A stretch of DNA of 64,000 nucleotides from positions 3,070,576-3,134,575 of the forward strand of contig OX639991.1 of NCBI GenBank assembly GCA_951828585.1, given 5' to 3'. The stretch comes from Longimicrobiales bacterium (GTDB taxonomy: Bacteria; Gemmatimonadota; Gemmatimonadetes; Longimicrobiales; Gaopeijiaceae). Position numbers and translations under genes: made by a program. Each line of letters opens with the position of its first letter. Position 1 is the stretch's first letter. The notes beneath the pieces were generated by a model that was given only the letters and a program-made list of their open reading frames with translations, did no database searches and was not told the DNA's origin. Of this stretch, positions 3,072-52,348 are shown piece by piece.

Positions 3072-3707
3072 ATGGCTCGATATACCGGTCCGGTTTGCAA
3101 GCGTTGCCGCAGGGAGGGACAGAAGCTCTTCCTGAAGGGCGCGAAGTGCTATACCGAGAAGTGTCCCGTCGAGAGACGGCAGTATCCGCCCGGACACCAC
3201 GGCCCGGCCTCCGTCCGCCGCCGCAAGCAGTCCGACTATGCCGTGCAGTTGCGGGAGAAGCAGAAGGTCAAGCGCGTCTACGGGCTGCACGAGAAGCAGT
3301 TCCGCAACCTCTTCAAGTACGCCGCCGGGCGCCCCGGCGTCACCGGCGAGAACCTCATCATCGCCCTGGAGAGCCGGCTGGACAACGTGTTCTTCCGCAT
3401 GGGTCTCGCGGTCAGCCGCCGCCAGGCACGCCAGCTGATACGGCACCGGCACGTCGAGGTGAATGGTTCGGTCGTCGATGTGCCGAGCTACCGATTGTCG
3501 GCAGGAGACGAAGTCGCTCTACGCGAAGGCTCGCGGGACCTGGAACTGGTCGAGGTCAGCCTCGGGGCGCGAACCCGGCCCCAGTTGCTCGACTGGCTCG
3601 CCCTCGACGAGGACAAGCGGGTGGGCAGGGTCATCAGGCAGCCTGTGCGGGGAGACATCCCGCTGGCTGCACAGGAACAGTTGATCGTCGAACTCTACTC
3701 CAAGTGA
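3072..3707 (+). CDS. rpsD: Ribosomal protein uS4 (zinc-binding form)
   Basis: Primary 16S rRNA-binding protein and assembly initiator. The 211-residue product keeps the zinc-coordinating cysteines Cys9, Cys12, Cys26 and Cys31 (the C+ type), then the S4 RNA-binding domain (LDNVFFRMGLAVSRRQARQL, HRHVEVNG). It lies between rpsK and rpoA, as in the alpha operon, where S4 is often the translational repressor; no regulatory pseudoknot was resolved by eye. Confidence 0.97.
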   Translation: MARYTGPVCKRCRREGQKLFLKGAKCYTEKCPVERRQYPPGHHGPASVRRRKQSDYAVQLREKQKVKRVYGLHEKQFRNLFKYAAGRPGVTGENLIIALESRLDNVFFRMGLAVSRRQARQLIRHRHVEVNGSVVDVPSYRLSAGDEVALREGSRDLELVEVSLGARTRPQLLDWLALDEDKRVGRVIRQPVRGDIPLAAQEQLIVELYSK

Positions 3708-43138: not shown

Positions 43139-43389
43139 AGTGCGCCGTGGAAAGGCGCGCTTTCCTGGTGGGTGCGAATCCCACCCAGCTATCGCTCCGG
43201 CTGGTAGCGGCCAGAGCGGTTCATGGAGGTAACGACATGGGCTGAAGCACTTTGGCGAGAAGGGCCGCCTTGGGCGGCTCAGCGACCATGCAGGCCGGAA
43301 CGCGAGTGAACGCCGAGCAGGCCTCGTATGTGGACGCCCCCCGGTTGGCAAGCCTGACTTCGGGTCGGGGTGGGCGGTAGTCAGGTCAG

Positions 43390-43688: not shown

Positions 43689-44756
43689 TCACTGATCTGA
43701 CCCGCAGCCCTGTTGTGCGGCTGTCAACGGCGGCTGTCGCTCTGGGGCCCTGTAGCTCTCCCCTTTGACCGTCACGGCCCAGATGATGCGTGCCATCCGA
43801 TTGGCCAGGGCCACTGCGACTACCTTCCTGGGCTTCTCGTTCAGCATGCGGGCAAGCCAGGGGTCGGTGACGTTCTTGCGCCGAATGGCACTCGATATCA
43901 CAGCCGTCGCTCCCAGATAGAGTAGCCTCCGTATGTCGCGCTGACCCATCTTCGTGATTCGCCCCAGCCGCTGGCGGCCACCCGTCGAAGATTCGCGCGG
44001 CGTGAGTCCGACCCATGCCGCAAAGTGACGTCCGTTTCGGAAGGACTCCATCGGTGGCGCAAAGGTGTGGACCGCCATCGCCGTGAGTTCTCCCACCCCC
44101 GGGATCGTCATCAGGCGCGCGAGCTGCTCATCGTCCCTCACGATCCGACGGATCTCCCGGTCCAGCTCATCGATTTCCACGTTCAGATCCCCGATCCGCT
44201 CGATCAGTAGGCGGATGGCGGGGGGTGCCGGCGCCGGGAAGTGCTCCTCACGCGCGACGAATGCCTCCTCCAGCCTTTCGACGTTGTGGATCCCGAGTGG
44301 AACGACCAGACCGAACTCTGCCAGATGACCCCGAAGCGCGTTAATCGTCTGGGTGCGCTGCTGCACGAGCAGCCCCCGGCTCCGGAACAACACCGAGCGC
44401 GCCTGCTCCTCCTCGGTCCTGACGGTCACGAACCGCATCGTCGGGCGCTGGGCCGCCTCGACGATCGCTCCCGCGTCGTTGGCATCGTTCTTCTGCCTCT
44501 TCACGTAGGGCTTCACATACACCGGGGGAATCAGCCGGACCTCGTGGCCGAGCCCCAGGATCATTCGTCCCCAATGGTGAGCGCTCGCGCAGACTTCCAT
44601 CACGACCCTGCAGGCGGGCTGCCCGCCGAGAAACGTGAGCACCTTCGAGCGCGTGAGCTTCCTGCGCAGCACTGGCTCACCATCCGCTGTTGCCCCGTGC
44701 AGCTGAAAGTACCGCTTCGAGATGTCGATGCCGATGACACTGACCACTTTATCCAT
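43689..44756 (-). CDS. IS110-family transposase (DEDD)
   Basis: 355 residues. The N-terminal RuvC-like DEDD domain starts VVSVIGIDISKRYF, with VVMEVCASAHHWGRMI and KRQKNDANDAGAIVEAA. The C-terminal transposase_20 domain has MTIPGVGELTAMAVHTF and HFAAWVGLTPRESSTGG with the serine region. In this family the element is directed by a bridge RNA from a flanking non-coding region; the 110 bases upstream (44757-44870) could hold it, but this was not resolved. Confidence 0.9.
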   Translation of the reverse strand: MDKVVSVIGIDISKRYFQLHGATADGEPVLRRKLTRSKVLTFLGGQPACRVVMEVCASAHHWGRMILGLGHEVRLIPPVYVKPYVKRQKNDANDAGAIVEAAQRPTMRFVTVRTEEEQARSVLFRSRGLLVQQRTQTINALRGHLAEFGLVVPLGIHNVERLEEAFVAREEHFPAPAPPAIRLLIERIGDLNVEIDELDREIRRIVRDDEQLARLMTIPGVGELTAMAVHTFAPPMESFRNGRHFAAWVGLTPRESSTGGRQRLGRITKMGQRDIRRLLYLGATAVISSAIRRKNVTDPWLARMLNEKPRKVVAVALANRMARIIWAVTVKGESYRAPERQPPLTAAQQGCGSDQ

Positions 44757-45225: not shown

Positions 45226-45241
45226 GAGCCGGATGCGGGAA
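45226..45241 (+). ncRNA. Group II intron domain V, 5' half
   Basis: GAGCCGGATGCGG plus GAA: the 5' strand of a domain V helix including the AGC catalytic triad, ending in the apical loop. The strand that should pair with it is found at 50336-50351, beyond an inserted element. Confidence 0.8.
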
Positions 45242-45327
45242 TTATGTTGCGGTCCCTATTATGTTGCGGACGGGTCGTATCGTATTGCTGGACATGGGGA
45301 TGCGCCATATGGCCGCAACATAATATT
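45242..45327 (+). repeat. Left terminal inverted repeat of the RIT element
   Basis: 86 bases. It contains the motif TTATGTTGCGG twice in direct orientation (45242 and 45259) and once inverted (CCGCAACATAA, ending 45323), which look like recombinase binding sites. Confidence 0.88.
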
Positions 45328-45384
45328 CTGACGAACGCCCGTTGCCTATGATCCTGCCTCCACCCCTGCAAAGGAGGCACGATC

Positions 45385-46623
45385 ATGTTCGAGGACCTGT
45401 TCATCGATCGCGGTGCGATCGCCCGCTATCGCGTCGCGCCGCTGCTGAGAGAGCGGCTGAGTTACCTGCGGCATCGTGCGCAGGAGGGGGCACGGCCGCT
45501 CACGCTGCGTAGGATCGCGGCGACTCAGCTCACCCTGATTCGTTTTCTGGATCTGCATGAGGGCGAGCGTGTCAGCGTGCCCCGGGTCGAGGCGGCGGCC
45601 GACCGCCGATCGAGTTGCTCGGCACAGCCGATAGAGCGTCAGGCTTTCGTCAGTCGTGCGGTGCAATGGCTGCGTTTTGCGGATCTGCTCGAAGACCCTG
45701 CACAGGCTGCTCCGCGGCGGCGGCACGCTCACGTCAGCGAGGTCACGATCTTCAGGGAGTGGATGCGCAAGGAACGCGGATGGTCCGAGGCGACGATCCG
45801 CAGCAGCAGCCGCACGACGGATCGTTTCTTCGACTGGCTTGACGAGTGGGGCACGGCCCTGGGCGCGGTCGTTATCTCCGACATCGACCGGGCGGTCGCG
45901 CGCTGGCACGCACGCGGCTGCGGTCGGCTCACGATCCGCAACTACGGACAGCGTCTGCGCACCTTCTTCCGGTTCGCCGAACACCAGGGCTGGTGTAGCC
46001 CGGGGCTGGCCGACGGGATCATGCCGACGCGGTTCCATCCCGGCGAGACGCTTCCGAAGGGACTCAACCGGGACGAGGCGCGACGCCTGCTCGCAACGTC
46101 CGAAGGCAACCGGCCGGTCGACGTGCGTGACCGGGCCATCCTGATGGTGCTGATCGCGTACGGATTGCGCGCCGGTGAGGTCGCCGGCCTGCGGCTCGAT
46201 GATCTGGACTGGGAAGAGGAGACGCTGCGGGTACGCCGCTCCAAGTCGGGATGCACGCAACACTATCCGCTCTCCCGCGGCGTCGGACAGGCAATCGTGC
46301 GTTACCTCACCGAGGTTCGTCCGATGCGCCCGGAGAGGGCGCTGTTCTTCACGCTGATCACTCCGATTCATCCGGTAGACCGGAACGTAGTGTCGGGCAT
46401 CGTCCGAAGACGCGTGGATAGGCTTGGGATCACTGGCAAGCGTCGCGGTGCCCATGCACTGCGCCACGCCGCAGCGCAGCACCTGCTCGACCGTGGCCTC
46501 TCCTTCAAGGAGGTCGGCGACTACCTCGGCCACCGCAGCACCTCGTCCGCCGCCGTGTACGCCAAGCTGCAGCTCAGCACCCTCCGCGAGATCGCCGACA
46601 TCGATCTGGAGGGGCTGGCATGA
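45385..46623 (+). CDS. RIT tyrosine recombinase A
   Basis: 412-residue tyrosine recombinase. The N-terminal SAM-like core-binding region (about 115-220) precedes the catalytic domain with Arg in IAYGLRAGEVAGLRL, the HALRHAAAQHLL box and the GHRSTSSAAVYAKL box with the nucleophilic Tyr. It is preceded by GCAAAGGAGG and overlaps the next gene by four bases (ATGA). First of three recombinases that are translated as a unit. Confidence 0.9.
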   Translation: MFEDLFIDRGAIARYRVAPLLRERLSYLRHRAQEGARPLTLRRIAATQLTLIRFLDLHEGERVSVPRVEAAADRRSSCSAQPIERQAFVSRAVQWLRFADLLEDPAQAAPRRRHAHVSEVTIFREWMRKERGWSEATIRSSSRTTDRFFDWLDEWGTALGAVVISDIDRAVARWHARGCGRLTIRNYGQRLRTFFRFAEHQGWCSPGLADGIMPTRFHPGETLPKGLNRDEARRLLATSEGNRPVDVRDRAILMVLIAYGLRAGEVAGLRLDDLDWEEETLRVRRSKSGCTQHYPLSRGVGQAIVRYLTEVRPMRPERALFFTLITPIHPVDRNVVSGIVRRRVDRLGITGKRRGAHALRHAAAQHLLDRGLSFKEVGDYLGHRSTSSAAVYAKLQLSTLREIADIDLEGLA

Positions 46624-47573
46624 TGCTCCGGGATGCAGTCAACGACTATATCGCCTGGCGCCGTGCCCACGGCGCGAAGTTCGACAGCGGGGCACGCCTG
46701 TTGTACCTGTTCCTTGAGCATGTCGATGGCACCATCGGCTGCGACACCGTCGTCCAGGCCGACGTTCTCGATTTCCTTGCCGGCAGGGGTCCGCTTACCC
46801 GGTACCGCGCCAACAAGTACGGTGCCTTGGCCGGCTTCTACCGCTACGCGATCAGCCGCGGCCATCTGACCCGGTCGCCGCTTCCAGCACGCAATAGCGA
46901 GCCGAGACGATCGCGCTCGGTACCGCCTTACGTCTATTCCCGCAACGAGTTGCAGCGCCTGTTCGACGCCATCGGTATCAGTCGGCAGGGTTCGCATCAG
47001 ATCGACGCCGACACTCTGCGGACGCTGCTGTTGCTGCTCTACGGCGCAGGGCTGCGCTTCGGCGAGGCCCGGCACCTGACCCTCGACGATGTCGACCTGC
47101 CCGATGCGCTGCTGACCATACGCAACACCAAGTTCTACAAGACCCGCCTCGTTCCCGTCTGCCCGAAGCTTGCCGACGCGCTGGGTGCCTACGCCGCCAA
47201 GCGCGCCGAACGCCCCTTTCCCAGGGGCACCGCCTCGACCTTCCTCGCCGATCGCGACGGTACTCCTCTGGCCGAGCGCACGACCCGCACCGCGTTCGCC
47301 AAGCTGCTCAAGGTTGCCGGGATCGGGCCTCCCGGCGACGGACGGCGAGCTCCGTGCCTTCACTCCCTGCGCCACGCAGCAGCCGTTCACCGGCTGGAGT
47401 CCTGGTACCGGCAGGGTGCCGATGTCCAGCGACTGCTGCCTGCTCTCTCCGTCTGGCTCGGGCACACCAAGCTCGACGGCACCCGGGCCTACCTCTCGAT
47501 GACGCCCGAGCTGCTGCAGCAGGCTTCGGTCCGCTTCAACGCCTACGTCAACGGAGGAGACAACCATGAGTAG
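46620..47573 (+). CDS. RIT tyrosine recombinase B
   Basis: 317 residues with the catalytic Arg in LYGAGLRFGEARHLTL, the HSLRHAAAVHRLE box and WLGHTKLDGTRAYLSM with the Tyr. It is coupled to recombinase A by ATGA overlap and to recombinase C by an 8-base overlap. All three in the trio keep their catalytic residues, so the element could be functional. Confidence 0.9.
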   Translation: MMLRDAVNDYIAWRRAHGAKFDSGARLLYLFLEHVDGTIGCDTVVQADVLDFLAGRGPLTRYRANKYGALAGFYRYAISRGHLTRSPLPARNSEPRRSRSVPPYVYSRNELQRLFDAIGISRQGSHQIDADTLRTLLLLLYGAGLRFGEARHLTLDDVDLPDALLTIRNTKFYKTRLVPVCPKLADALGAYAAKRAERPFPRGTASTFLADRDGTPLAERTTRTAFAKLLKVAGIGPPGDGRRAPCLHSLRHAAAVHRLESWYRQGADVQRLLPALSVWLGHTKLDGTRAYLSMTPELLQQASVRFNAYVNGGDNHE

Positions 47574-48561
47574 CCCCCGCACCCTCGGTCCCTGGCTCCG
47601 CCGCTTCCTCACCGAGCACATCGTCACCGAGCGCAACCTCGCCCGCAACACCCAGAAGAGCTACCGCGACACCTTCCTCCTCCTCCTGCCGTTCGTCGGC
47701 ACCAGGATCCGCAAACCGGTCGACCGGATCGCGATAGAGGACCTCACGTCCCGGCGCGTGCGCCAGTTCCTCGACCACCTCGAGGAGGACCGTGGCTGCT
47801 CCGTGCAGACTCGCAACCAGCGGCTATCGGCGATCCGCGCATTCGCACGCTTCGTCGCCAGTCGCGATCCCGCCCAAATCGAGTGGACCGGCTGTATCCG
47901 GGCGATCGCCTCGAAGAAGGCGGCGCCGAAGCCGATCGGGTGGCTCACCAAGACCGAGATGGCCGAACTGCTCGAGGCGCCGAACCGCCGAACGCCCAGA
48001 GGCCGGGTCGAACACGCCCTCCTCCTCTTCCTCTACAACACCGGCGCGCGCGTCTCCGAAACGACGCACCTCGTCGTGGACGATCTGCAGATCGGACGAC
48101 GCGACGGCGCACATGCGCTCGTCAACATCCGTGGCAAGGGCAGAAAAGAGCGGCAGTGTCCGCTGTGGCCGCGGACCGAAGCCGTGCTCGCCGAACTCGC
48201 GCAGGGCCAGAGAGCCGCGGACACCGTCTTCCTCAGCCGGCAACGAAGACCGTATACGCGGTTCGGCGTCTATCGGCTCGTCGAGCGCTCCGGGGCCCGC
48301 GCACCCTCGCTCGCCGGAAGACGGATCACGCCTCACATGATCCGTCACACGAGCGCCTGCCACCTGCTCCAGGCCGGGATCGATCTGAACACGATCCGTG
48401 CCTGGCTCGGACATGCCAGCCTCGACACCACCAACGTCTACGCCGAGATCGACATGGAGATGAAAGCCAAGGCCATGGCACTCTGCGATGCCACGGAGCC
48501 CGGACCAGATCGCCCGTGGAAGACAAGCAACGGACTCATGAGTGTCCTGACTGCACTCTGA
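47566..48561 (+). CDS. RIT tyrosine recombinase C
   Basis: 331 residues with a XerC-like N-terminal domain (ARNTQKSYRDTFLLLLPFV), the catalytic Arg in LYNTGARVSETTHLVV, the HMIRHTSACHLL box and WLGHASLDTTNVYAEI with the Tyr nucleophile. It ends four bases before the ISL3 target duplication, so the insertion spared the gene. Confidence 0.9.
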   Translation: MSSPRTLGPWLRRFLTEHIVTERNLARNTQKSYRDTFLLLLPFVGTRIRKPVDRIAIEDLTSRRVRQFLDHLEEDRGCSVQTRNQRLSAIRAFARFVASRDPAQIEWTGCIRAIASKKAAPKPIGWLTKTEMAELLEAPNRRTPRGRVEHALLLFLYNTGARVSETTHLVVDDLQIGRRDGAHALVNIRGKGRKERQCPLWPRTEAVLAELAQGQRAADTVFLSRQRRPYTRFGVYRLVERSGARAPSLAGRRITPHMIRHTSACHLLQAGIDLNTIRAWLGHASLDTTNVYAEIDMEMKAKAMALCDATEPGPDRPWKTSNGLMSVLTAL

Positions 48562-48572
48562 GAGAAAAATAT

Positions 48573-50213
48573 GGTTCTTCCCCTTTTCTGGTGGGTAGCA
48601 GGTCATGTGCGCAGGCCATCGGGGTAGAGGTCGAGGCCGCCGAGGTGGAAGAGGATGGCGTTCGCGAAGCGTTCCCGGTTGCGAAAGCCGCGGCTGCGGA
48701 CCTTGACTGTCTTGATCCGGCTGTTGATGCCTTCCGCCGGTCCGTTGGTGGCGCGGAGGATGATCGCATTGACGATTCCCCACAGATGCTCCCGGATCAT
48801 CCGGGCGGTTTTCAGGACCGGCTCCAGATCGCAGTCCGATGCCCACTCCAGCCACCGGTGCCATCCGGCCAGCGCCCAGGTTCTGCTCCGGTAGTTCCAG
48901 AGGTTCGCGGCCGCTTCCTTCAGCTCCCAGGCCTGGGCGGTCCGGCGGGTGCCCGCACGGAGCCTCGCGAACGCCAGCTTTTCGGCGTGCGTCTTCCGTC
49001 TGGGGCCCTTCAGCCACTGCCACTTGGTGCCCACGAGGATCCCGTTGCCCTCCTTCACCAGCGCCCGGTGCTCCGCCCGCCGGACCTTGTCCACCGCGTC
49101 GCCGAGGTGCTTGGCCACGTGGAACCGGTCGAACGCGATCTTCATCACGGCGTCCGGGATCATCGCCAGAGTCGCCGAGATGTAGGGCCCCCACATGTCC
49201 ATGCTGACGCTCTCGACAGCCTCCCGGTACTTCTCTCCCATGCCCTCGTAGAACGCCAGGAGCACGTCCTTGCCCCGTCCCGGGGCGACATGCACGACGT
49301 GGCCCGTCTCCGGATTCGACACCACGGTCACGTACTGGTGCCGGCGGCGGAACGAGGTCTCGTCCACCGAAAGGCGCCGAACCGCCTTCGTCTTGCGGCG
49401 CGCAAGTCCCCGCGCCACTGCACGTTGCATGATTCCGTCCACCGCGTTCCAGCTCAGCCGCATCCGGCTGGCGACCGCCTGTACGCTCGCCACCTTGAGC
49501 CACCGGATCACCTCCGCCTCGAACTCCATCGTGTACCTCGTGCTCCCCTCCGCCCACGGCACCTGAATCGTGACCACCCCGTGCTCCGGGCACTGGACCC
49601 GCGGGACATTGCAGACCAGAAAGGTCTTGTAGCCCCAGGCATCCAGGTTCCGCCACTCGCGGCGGCGCGTATCGTAGCCCGGGCACGCCTCGCCGCAGTG
49701 AGGACACCTCAACGGGCTCCCTCCGGTCCGTTGCAACTCCACCCGAAGTTCCTTGGGGTCCCGGGTCGGCTCCACCCTCGTGACCTTCCACTCCGGACCC
49801 AGGCCCAGAACGGCGTCCAGCCAGTCTCTTCCGGCCATGTCTGCGAGTTCCCTTCCGTCTCGTTGTGGACACCTGCCGGGAGCGAGCGCTCCGCGGCCTG
49901 ACCACGCAATTTCCTCCGAGTCTCGCGATCCCGAAAGGCAACCCGCTACTCTCCTCCCCGTTCAGCACCAGCGCCGGTGGCTTCCGCGCCCAACCAAGTC
50001 GTTGTGCGAGGAGTGGTCGAGAGGGTCACCCCGGCCGGTCGGCGGCACGTCAGCCTTCGCCGAAGGGGATCGCCCCTCCCGTCGTCTACTACATCCTCGC
50101 TGTTCCACTCTCTCCACCCACGCTCATCCCACCGCCGCTGTTGCGAAAGCCCGCCAACCCGCCCCATAATTCGACCCTCCCCCTTGCCCGCCCACCACGA
50201 CAGGGGAAGAACC
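48573..50213 (-). mobile_element. ISL3-family insertion sequence
   Basis: 1641 bp with terminal inverted repeats starting GGTTCTTCCCC at both ends. It is flanked by a perfect 8-bp target duplication AAAAATAT (48565-48572 and 50214-50221). It lies inside the RIT element between recombinase C and the right terminal repeat. Bases 49839-50213 are the non-coding upstream part of the element; no gene is seen there. Confidence 0.92.
48603..49838 (-). CDS. ISL3-family transposase
   Basis: 411 residues. The N-terminal zinc finger (RCPHCGEACPGYDTRRREWR) and second Cys pair (FLVCNVPRVQCPEHG) are typical. The DDE domain has LSVDETSFRRRHQYVTVV, VSMDMWGPYISATLA and FDRFHVAKHLGDAVDKVRR, with the C-terminal NGPAEGINSRIKTVKVRSRG. 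Intact length. Confidence 0.93.
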   Translation of the reverse strand: MAGRDWLDAVLGLGPEWKVTRVEPTRDPKELRVELQRTGGSPLRCPHCGEACPGYDTRRREWRNLDAWGYKTFLVCNVPRVQCPEHGVVTIQVPWAEGSTRYTMEFEAEVIRWLKVASVQAVASRMRLSWNAVDGIMQRAVARGLARRKTKAVRRLSVDETSFRRRHQYVTVVSNPETGHVVHVAPGRGKDVLLAFYEGMGEKYREAVESVSMDMWGPYISATLAMIPDAVMKIAFDRFHVAKHLGDAVDKVRRAEHRALVKEGNGILVGTKWQWLKGPRRKTHAEKLAFARLRAGTRRTAQAWELKEAAANLWNYRSRTWALAGWHRWLEWASDCDLEPVLKTARMIREHLWGIVNAIILRATNGPAEGINSRIKTVKVRSRGFRNRERFANAILFHLGGLDLYPDGLRT

Positions 50214-50216
50214 AAA

Positions 50217-50302
50217 AATATTATGTTGCGGCCATATGGCGCATCCCAATGTCCAGCAATACGATACGACCCGTCCGCAACATAATAGGGACCGCAACAT
50301 AA
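50217..50302 (-). repeat. Right terminal inverted repeat of the RIT element
   Basis: The reverse complement of the left repeat with one mismatch in 86 bases. Its inner end overlaps the ISL3 target duplication (AAAAATAT), which shows that the IS inserted just inside the RIT end. Confidence 0.88.
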
Positions 50303-50334
50303 TTCCCGTTATGTTGAATTCCACATAACGGGAA
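50303..50334 (+). repeat. Palindromic appendix at the RIT right end
   Basis: TTCCCG, then the 20-base inverted repeat TTATGTTGAATTCCACATAA, then CGGGAA. The outer hexamers are reverse complements of each other. The inner 20-mer begins and ends like the two tips of a RIT element, so this may be a minimal leftover of recombinase activity. There is no counterpart at the left end. Confidence 0.7.
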
Positions 50335-50351
50335 ATCCGCACGTCCGGTTC
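50335..50351 (+). ncRNA. Group II intron domain V, 3' half
   Basis: A plus TCCGCACGTCCGGTTC pairs with GAGCCGGATGCGG of the 5' half to give the canonical domain V stem with a 2-base CG bulge. The uninterrupted loop would read GAAA. Confidence 0.8.
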
Positions 50352-51182: not shown

Positions 51183-52034
51183 TCAGGCCGCATGGTTGAG
51201 TTTCTCGAAGTCCGCCGGCGATTCGTAGCCGAGCGCGGAGTGGAGTCGGCGGGTGTTGTAGAAGCCCTCGATGAATTGGAAGACTTCACGCCGCGCCTTG
51301 GCCACCGTCGGAAAACGCCGCCGGTCGATGAGTTCGCACTCGAGCGTGGCGAAAAAGCTCTCACACATAGCGTTGTCGTATGCGTCGCCCACCGAGCCCA
51401 TCGACTGCGCGATGCCCGCCTCGCGACAATGCTCCCCGAACGCCAGCGACGTGTACTGCGAGCCTTGGTCGGAGTGATGGACGACTCCACCCCTCGGCTG
51501 GCGGCGGCGGACCGCCATCTCCAGCGCGGCCCCGACCAGCTCGGCCTTCATGTGGGGTGCCATCGCCCAGCCGACGATCCGCCGGCTCCAGGCATCGAGC
51601 ACCACGGCGAGGTACAGCCAGCCGGTCCAGGTGGGCACGTACGTGATGTCCGCCACCCACAGTTGGTCGGGACCCTTGGCCGAAAAGTCCCGGTTCACCA
51701 GGTCCGGCGCGGGCTCGGCCTTGGCGTCCCTCTTCGTCGTGCCCGTCTTGAATCGCCTCCGCGTCACGCCCTCGATGTCCAGCTCCCTCATCAGGCGTGC
51801 CACTCGCTTCCGGCTCACACGCTCGCCGTCGGCCAAGAGCGCCGCGTGGATCCGCGGGCAGCCGTAGGTCTCGTCGCTGTCGCGCCAGATCGCCTTGATC
51901 CTGACCTTGAGCTCGGAGTCTCGCCCCGCTCGCGCCGAGGGCGGACGGTTCAGCCAGCCGTAGTACCCGCTGGGGGAGAGACCCAGCACCCGGCACATGG
52001 CTGCAAGCGGAAAGGTTGCCCGGTTCGCCTTCAT
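51183..52034 (-). CDS. IS3-family transposase, OrfB
   Basis: 283 residues. An HTH_21-type region (ETYGCPRIHAALLADG, RKRVARLMRELDIEGV) is followed by the rve core: Asp in WVADITYVPTWTGWLYLAVVL, Asp in VVHHSDQGSQYTS and Glu in NAMCESFFATLECELID. It overlaps OrfA by four bases. An A7G run in OrfA just upstream (52091-52098) is a candidate -1 frameshift site to make the OrfAB transposase. Confidence 0.92.
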   Translation of the reverse strand: MKANRATFPLAAMCRVLGLSPSGYYGWLNRPPSARAGRDSELKVRIKAIWRDSDETYGCPRIHAALLADGERVSRKRVARLMRELDIEGVTRRRFKTGTTKRDAKAEPAPDLVNRDFSAKGPDQLWVADITYVPTWTGWLYLAVVLDAWSRRIVGWAMAPHMKAELVGAALEMAVRRRQPRGGVVHHSDQGSQYTSLAFGEHCREAGIAQSMGSVGDAYDNAMCESFFATLECELIDRRRFPTVAKARREVFQFIEGFYNTRRLHSALGYESPADFEKLNHAA

Positions 52035-52348
52035 GAACGCATACCCCCGCCAGGGATCGATTCGCTCTCCCTCGCGAACCAGGCCGCGGCTTTTTTTAGG
52101 ATGTCCCGCTCCATCCTGAGCCGCTTGACTTCCCGCTTCAGCTCCCTCATCTCCTTGCGTGCCTCCGTCGTCAGACCGTCACTGCGCCGGCCCTCGTCCA
52201 GGTCCGCCTGCTTGACCCAGTTCCGGATCGTCTGCTGCGAAGGCTCGAACTCGCGTGCGAGAGACCCCGGACTACGCCCGGCTCTCACCAGCTCGACGAT
52301 ACGTTCCTTGTACTCGGGCGGATACCGCCCTCGTCTTCTTCCCGCCAT
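52031..52348 (-). CDS. IS3-family OrfA (helix-turn-helix protein)
   Basis: 105 residues: the HTH domain (YPPEYKERIVELVRAGRSPG, QQTIRNWVKQAD) and a leucine-zipper-like coil (EMRELKREVKRLRMERDIL). A run of seven A followed by G near the 3' end (coding KKAAAW) is the likely programmed frameshift site. AGGAGGTGAGTC lies upstream of the ATG. Confidence 0.9.
   Translation of the reverse strand: MAGRRRGRYPPEYKERIVELVRAGRSPGSLAREFEPSQQTIRNWVKQADLDEGRRSDGLTTEARKEMRELKREVKRLRMERDILKKAAAWFARESESIPGGGMRS

Follow-up and report, generated by a model that had tools for sequence, protein, structure and literature searches.

RIT elements at domain V of group II introns: a 6-bp spacer, a detached palindrome and a candidate two-part architecture

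Introduction

RIT elements, described in 2009 (reference within PMC10214605), carry the overlapping genes ritA-ritB-ritC on about 3,500 bp and are found inserted in other genes of Cupriavidus metallidurans and further organisms; the sources cited here were available as excerpts, to which the statements on them, the negative ones included, apply. Insertions were recorded in a tnpA gene of the IS66 family and in radC (PMC2864759), and in a Tn6049-related transposase gene and radC (PMC3414803). An inverted repeat of 28-9 bp and a palindromic sequence overlapping with it were described as flanking ritA and ritC, respectively; beyond these no convincing arrangement of binding sites was reported, the fit to the usual core and arm sites was poor, and the sharing of the reaction among three recombinases was considered hard to picture (PMC3414803). 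Here, a 64,000-nt stretch of the genome of a Longimicrobiales bacterium (contig OX639991.1, positions 3,070,576 to 3,134,575, forward strand; the whole stretch is called the window) was analysed, in which a RIT of the described gene order and length splits domain V (D5) of a group II intron. The source genome is a single contig of 4.47 Mb. Unlike for the RITs studied here, neither a spacer rule nor an intron target is given for those in the excerpts of PMC2864759 and PMC3414803.

Like RITs, the SE elements, GInts and Tn554 (PMC10214605) have several tyrosine recombinases and a 6-bp spacer with a memory of the donor: the spacer of SE elements leaves a footprint, and the circle keeps 6 bp of the previous site. 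SE elements differ from the present RITs in their one joint region (C and C' motifs) and their other gene sets, and a detached palindrome is not mentioned for them in the excerpt; the present RITs have two junctions, the spacer in triplicate and a detached palindrome, and not the single junction by which SE elements and Tn554 are recognised. A literature search returned no paper on the insertion of a tyrosine recombinase into domain V, and the term "group II intron" has 0 occurrences in PMC3414803, PMC10214605, PMC8138268 and PMC5385486 by word count. We make no claim to be the first to describe the palindrome or the spacer rule. The main RIT paper is reportedly that of Ricker et al. 2013.

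Results and discussion

A RIT between the two halves of one domain V

For the locus in the window, we consider it likely that the RIT was inserted site-specifically into D5 by tyrosine-recombinase strand exchange across a 6-bp spacer, and that the element is built in two parts, the RIT proper and a detached 20-bp palindrome. The features on which this reading is based are, from left to right:

43166-43305, + strand: group II intron domains I-IV, 5' part of the host intron (Rfam RF02003, 79 bits)
45226-45235, + strand: D5 5' strand left of the crossover, GAGCCGGATG (sequence, fold)
45236-45241, + strand: target copy of the 6-bp spacer X, CGGGAA, at the ritA end (sequence)
45242-45327, + strand: left RIT terminal inverted repeat, 86 bp, starts TTATGTTG (repeat search)
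45385-46623, + strand: RitA tyrosine recombinase, 412 aa (Phage_integrase, 4.3e-30)
46620-47573, + strand: RitB tyrosine recombinase, 317 aa, overlaps ritA by 4 bp (Phage_integrase, 2.1e-16)
47566-48561, + strand: RitC tyrosine recombinase, 331 aa, overlaps ritB by 8 bp (Phage_integrase, 6.5e-30)
50217-50302, + strand: right RIT terminal inverted repeat, ends CAACATAA (repeat search)
50303-50308, + strand: inner spacer X', TTCCCG, the target spacer inverted (sequence)
50309-50328, + strand: detached 20-bp palindrome TTATGTTGAATTCCACATAA, two recombinase-type arms back to back
50329-50334, + strand: second target copy of the 6-bp spacer X, CGGGAA (sequence)
50335-50351, + strand: D5 remainder, ATCCGCACGTCCGGTTC (sequence)

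Joining 45226-45241 to 50335-50351 gives GAGCCGGATGCGGGAAATCCGCACGTCCGGTTC, which adopts a D5 fold (−20.1 kcal/mol, z −5.2 against 200 letter shuffles). Five loci of the same genus (L183-L187) were checked for this hairpin; four have one, and in L183, L184 and L185 it is letter-identical to the joined hairpin over 33 letters. These three unbroken D5s scored 44.6, 51.6 and 44.7 bits against RF00029 (cut-off 40); that of L186, two letters off, gave no RF00029 match. The model was also passed by L025 and L027, two introns of the window's type in the same genome whose D5 is intact (46.4 and 46.2 bits), and by L190 and L191, the joined window D5 being judged through its identity to L183-L185. In an Rfam scan at the gathering score, the window D5 as split gave no D5 match, and both RIT-split copies in the window genome showed the D1-D4 match with the D5 match absent. 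By Rfam, the host belongs to the D1D4-4 group II introns and has an RF00029 D5, canonical once joined. Unlike a standard intron of this type, the window copy has, besides the interrupted D5, an IS110 insertion and no domain VI; the latter is missing since the resemblance to L025 extends only as far as GGTTCG.

The inserted element was identified as a RIT by three adjacent tyrosine-recombinase genes in the order A-B-C with overlaps of 4 and 8 bp, the names RitA, RitB and RitC being given by gene order and length, with Phage_integrase as the shared model. Tyrosine recombinases have the catalytic motif R..HxxR..H..Y, and the corresponding residues were located by eye in all three translations (HALRH, HSLRH and HMIRH, each followed by GH...Y). 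Without a nested ISL3-family element, the RIT measures 3424 bp including spacers, which fits the 3.4-3.5 kb of RITs with terminal inverted repeats.

An earlier note, made from the window sequence alone, had described a RIT with 86-bp inverted repeats placed exactly in the apical loop of a D5, with everything between the two strands of the hairpin belonging to the RIT. Its positions for the two D5 halves were borne out by the sequence, and its covariance check, made by way of the letter-identical D5s of L183-L185, did not return a failing D5; these three loci also provide the D5 without the insert in related genomes. The repeat length stands as well: the inverted repeats found (92 nt at 99%) are made up of 86 bp of element end and the 6-bp spacer. 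The apical loop holds only in part, in that the insertion lies within the hairpin and the spacer CGGGAA consists, in the fold of the joined hairpin, of the last three bases of the 5' stem and the first three of the loop. Likewise, the RIT does lie between the D5 halves, with the ISL3 element nested inside it and the palindrome and spacers (50303-50334) outside it.

A second, identical RIT in another intron of the genome

The window genome contains two identical RITs and a related third, which lies inside an IS110-type frame (by eye). The second RIT (OWN2; G000:C1:833793-837216) is identical to that of the window at 3424 of 3424 positions, the ISL3 element being left out of the comparison, and splits a D5 at the same six bases; the insertion into D5 thus recurs. 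Relative to D5, ritABC is reversed in OWN2, with the 20-bp palindrome on the same D5 side as in the window. The OWN2 host intron is related to the window intron and differs from it. It has the D1-D4 match and an LtrA-type frame of 469 codons from stop to stop, ending just before D5 (named by look and place), and its 137 nt starting at D5 match L025 at 89% identity. Compared with the window intron type, 83% identity was found over the 48 nt just before D5 and 88% in domains I-IV; upstream of these 48 nt the two introns diverge, the LtrA frame of OWN2 being located there. A third case is L026 (2989-3011), of the window intron type, in which the D5 5' strand is fused to the right half of the palindrome. 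The deletion scar starts within the palindrome and continues into CGGGAAATCCGC; since it holds part of the palindrome, L026 formerly carried one, and it is a former insertion lost by deletion.

A single RIT insertion into one D5, followed by homologous recombination or gene conversion into the second intron, would account for the identity of the RIT copies, for the relatedness of the introns at the values given above, and for the palindrome scar in another window-type intron, L026. This explanation was rated slightly higher on account of the similarity of the 48 nt before D5 in both introns. It is opposed by the RIT orientation, which is opposite at a constant palindrome side, so that conversion through the flanks would need a later inversion, by the different sequences upstream of the 48 nt, with the LtrA frame in OWN2, and by the same flip in Mesorhizobium between two different D5-type sites (see below). 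Simple gene conversion into the second intron appears less likely on the alignments, and we rate the explanation as a whole as unlikely. A chimera of swapped window and OWN2 intron halves was rejected, since the OWN2 intron bears LtrA and has a D6 of its own, and D6 is simply absent from the window copy.

A distant RIT lineage in Mesorhizobium

On plasmid p_3 of Mesorhizobium huakuii 583 (L163), an LtrA-bearing D1D4-4 intron has its D5 split by a RIT whose RitB is 45.6% identical to that of the window. The same intron, here with an intact D5 (RF00029, 47.3 bits), is found on a plasmid of M. loti 582 (L191), and the right target flanks (T_R) of the two are identical at 900 of 900 bases. The target hexamer is CGCATC, of which the p_3 copy has CGCATC on the RIT side and CGCACC on the palindrome side; to judge from the alignment of the empty L191 with the occupied L163, this is a precise insertion with a 6-bp duplication. 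Plasmid p_2 of the same M. huakuii strain holds an identical RIT (3394 of 3394 positions) in opposite orientation in a D5-like hairpin (L188), whose fold is weaker (z −2.65) and for which no Rfam match was found. On its target side, this p_2 copy has the spacer GGCATC, which is also the inner spacer in p_3. An insertion of the p_3 type, with one RIT end read, is also present in Mesorhizobium sp. AR02 (L189). Behind the latter (L189:4715-9201), two recombinase gene sets stand in tandem, the first apparently without ritC.

Within D5, the Mesorhizobium spacer is positioned 4 bp upstream of that in the window, on the stem strand, and the loop as such is therefore not the rule. D5 is a recurrent RIT target, used by two distantly related lineages. 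Identical RIT pairs at different sites are available from one genome (that of the window) and one Mesorhizobium strain, together with the one empty-site partner. The idea that RITs sit in group II introns as a rule was discarded, as an Rfam scan of 12 RIT loci returned no match. Among 10 further RIT loci scanned in this way, L163 is the D5 case, and the group II introns matched in L161 and L169 lie elsewhere in the stretch and are not split by the RIT; no further D5 site was recognised in a viral-contig scan and in phage records.

A detached palindrome and a triplicate spacer across RIT loci

RIT loci were taken from 80 genome contigs, 14 viral contigs, 16 plasmid stretches, 12 phylum-relative stretches and the window genome. 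In a same-family search of 121 genomes (E ≤ 1e-40), matches were obtained only in the window genome (G000), G309, G279 and G303. Readable ends showed a 20-bp palindrome, mostly of the form NNATGT...ACATNN, at a distance of one 6-bp spacer from one RIT end, on either the ritA or the ritC side; three loci with RitB about 35% identical to that of the window (L054, L056, L057) have a palindrome of other letters at the same place. With the palindrome drawn on the left, the integrated order is T_L-X-pal20-X'-RIT-X-T_R (T_L, left target flank; pal20, palindrome), with ritABC either way round.

The spacer table comprises 44 sites, 5 of them without a readable second end, and includes L151, where the palindrome is 2.7 kb from the RIT. 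L047, L048 and L144 (duplicates or near-duplicates) and L080 (double palindrome) were excluded, and L188 and L189 entered no statistic. Loci ending inside repeats or having long inverted repeats were left unclassified, for which reason no overall palindrome frequency is claimed. At the 39 sites with both ends, some of them close relatives, the outer spacers differed by 0, 1, 2, 3 and 5 mismatches in 16, 7, 8, 7 and 1 cases, respectively, so that 0-2 mismatches were seen in 31/39, compared with 113/1482 re-paired controls. The inner spacer, when inverted, equalled an outer one in 24/39 (controls, 12/1482) and came within one mismatch in 31/39. At sites with a ritA-side palindrome, the base two positions into T_R (TR2) was A in 16 of 23, and at those with a ritC-side palindrome in 10 of 15, the mirrored T_L position being A at 7/23 and 5/14, respectively. 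As TR2 is mostly A whichever way the RIT is oriented, target polarity is followed by the palindrome and not by ritABC. In one Acidobacteriota genome, L059 has the outer spacer GACGTG and the inner spacer GGAGGG, and L060/L062 have the outer spacers GGAGGG/GGGAGG and the inner spacer GACGTG, with the palindrome on the other side of the RIT; such a swap would be expected from a circle using its other attachment site.

The palindrome might instead be the remnant of an earlier RIT or, by chance, a separate mini-element and not a working part. It does look like two RIT ends with nothing between them, and five inspected RITs have no adjacent palindrome. It is, on the other hand, found beside RITs whose RitB is 35% to 100% identical to that of the window, in records titled Gemmatimonadetes, Acidobacteria and several Proteobacteria, keeps a distance of one 6-bp spacer in the tabulated sites, and has arms that resemble the end motif of the adjoining RIT (by eye). 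In the window genome it occurs, at up to 3 mismatches, at three places, each beside one of the three RITs. A remnant or chance neighbour is accordingly judged improbable.

Further loci depart from the usual layout. RIT inverted repeats of about 1.1 kb with a toprim-domain gene in each were noted in L158 (2012-3150 and 6484-7622) and L159 (2016-3150 and 6484-7618). Between the RIT end and the palindrome, L156 (6537-9167) and L162 (6549-9173) have a tyrosine recombinase gene and an IS91 transposase, and L151 (3934-6680) and L153 (8037-10783) have unannotated DNA; these 2.6-2.7 kb are possibly a cargo slot.

Proposed insertion mechanism

RitABC would excise a circle in which pal20 is connected to both ends of the RIT, giving it two attachment sites, RIT_L-spacer-pal and RIT_R-spacer-pal. 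Either of these could undergo recombination with a target whose 6-bp spacer matches. The asymmetry of the target would direct the pal arm to T_L and the RIT arm to T_R, so that the side of pal20 would be fixed and the direction of ritABC free. The attachment site that was not used would retain the spacer of the earlier target. Where X' is the inversion of X, one element might enter one target both ways, as may have happened with the D5s of the window and OWN2. D5 would be hit repeatedly as a conserved sequence present in many intron copies and not for its hairpin nature. Splicing would be abolished as long as the RIT sits in D5; as 6-bp direct repeats flank the insertion, precise excision by exact X-X recombination would be expected to restore D5. 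The full circle with two sites and live junctions is a tentative part of the proposal, to which we give slightly less than an even chance. A similar, somewhat sceptical grading applies to the general reading that RITs are two-part elements, in which the pal20 mini-element gives the circle two attachment sites, one keeping the spacer of the last target, and D5 is the home site for some lineages.

A total of 22 further or doubtful loci was inspected, among them L080 with its double palindrome, L055 (masked), L154 (ambiguous) and 5 cut by a contig end. Within this set, 5 have no palindrome at either end, 4 (3 distinct) have it 2.6-2.7 kb away and 5 have it adjacent (2 already counted elsewhere). 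Three of the RITs without an adjacent palindrome have flanks that are homologous when read outward: in L121, 66% over 1484 nt, and in L146, three stretches of 67-82%, both at nearly matching distances, and in L166, 28 nt in register at 89%. In 30 palindrome-bearing sites, several of them with short flanks, flank homology was limited to one weak out-of-register match (L082). In L080, with palindromes on both sides, the outer flanks are alike at 39/50 bases; over 36 bases there are 28 matches, a value reached by 1/741 control pairs. L121, L146 and L166 on the one hand and L080 on the other are apparently the two products predicted for an exchange of RIT ends between two insertions, whether through site-specific or homologous recombination.

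Several observations weigh against the proposed insertion mechanism. The circle is deduced from static junctions, and no circle, excision or transposition was observed. The outer spacers differ at at least 3 of 6 positions in 8/39 sites, and the inner spacer is within 2 mismatches of neither outer one in 4/39. Five RITs (L121, L146, L166, L086, L128) lack an adjacent palindrome, and L086 and L128, with a short-side flank of 269 and 49 nt, fall outside the account by homologous flanks. D5 represents only two lineages among 33 de-duplicated sites, of which those belonging to one family are not independent. The window intron was broken by other events as well, and an effect on splicing is not shown here.

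If RITs are two-part elements, an element could switch from one target spacer to another or enter a single one in both orientations, and the pal-RIT junction would stay live after insertion and could fuse two target copies (L121, L146, L166; L080). RITs homing to D5 would then be reversible hyperparasites, switching the intron off on insertion and restoring it on exact excision. Taken together, the triplicate spacer, the palindrome set apart from the RIT, the constant polarity of the target and the pair of empty and occupied sites yield a concrete, testable model of RIT insertion. No part of a group II intron is more conserved or more essential than D5, and the repeated presence of two distant RIT lineages in this catalytic hairpin is a clear example of parasitism between mobile elements.

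Target choice

Ten junction-spanning frames were scanned with Pfam, having been picked by eye from 31 as recognisable, so that the resulting target list is a biased sample. They comprised 4 IS66 transposases, 1 IS110, 1 IS256 (mutator), 1 serine recombinase and 1 HU-type DNA-binding protein; 2 were without a match. In L123, L121 and L132, RITs apparently share one conserved motif in serine recombinase genes as their insertion site (Pfam for L123, the others by eye).

Symmetry of the target arms was compared with that of re-paired flanks at offsets −1, 0 and +1, all p values being uncorrected. They were 0.69, 0.61 and 0.016 for 33 sites, a set from which L079, L062, L092, OWN2, L159 and L076 were additionally omitted, 0.75, 0.63 and 0.097 for the 31 sites left without the two D5 lineages, and 0.73, 0.60 and 0.0095 for 38 sites with relatives kept (best of three, 0.054). 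The earlier note had suggested that the trio of recombinases targets palindromes and had named a lack of inverted-repeat preference at other RIT insertions as the outcome that would speak against this. As far as these sites go, that is the outcome: the 31 non-D5 sites have no general arm symmetry. Targeting of hairpins in general, in the manner of integron attC, was rejected on the same grounds, the weak +1 signal falling to p 0.097 without the D5 sites.

A further explanation is that hairpins or palindromes in DNA are themselves what RIT recombinases recognise, as the integron integrase does with folded attC, and that D5 is hit as a hairpin. It has in its favour that D5 is one and is used by two lineages, that some non-D5 sites have symmetric arms (in L064, CTGGTG and CACCAG around the spacer) and that symmetry at +1 exceeds that of re-paired flanks, and is nevertheless unlikely, given the two other offsets without excess, the protein-family matches in 8/10 scanned frames and the 4-bp shift of the crossover within D5 between lineages. 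Conserved stretches of multicopy mobile elements appear to be favoured as targets, which we infer to be the better explanation.

Nested and neighbouring elements

Apart from the RIT, the host intron in the window is doubly damaged, by the IS110 insertion and the absence of domain VI, and the RIT itself carries an insertion:

43689-44756, − strand: IS110-family transposase gene inside the same intron (open reading frame and family match)
48565-50221, − strand: ISL3-family insertion sequence with 8-bp target duplications AAAAATAT (inside the RIT, not in the second RIT copy)
48573-50213: ISL3 element proper, with the transposase at 48603-49838

The ISL3 element is a later hit that arrived after the RIT. 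Extra DNA also lies between the intron halves of the copies L024, L026 and L027. Directly downstream of the broken intron, the window has an IS3-family element with two reading frames (51183-52348).

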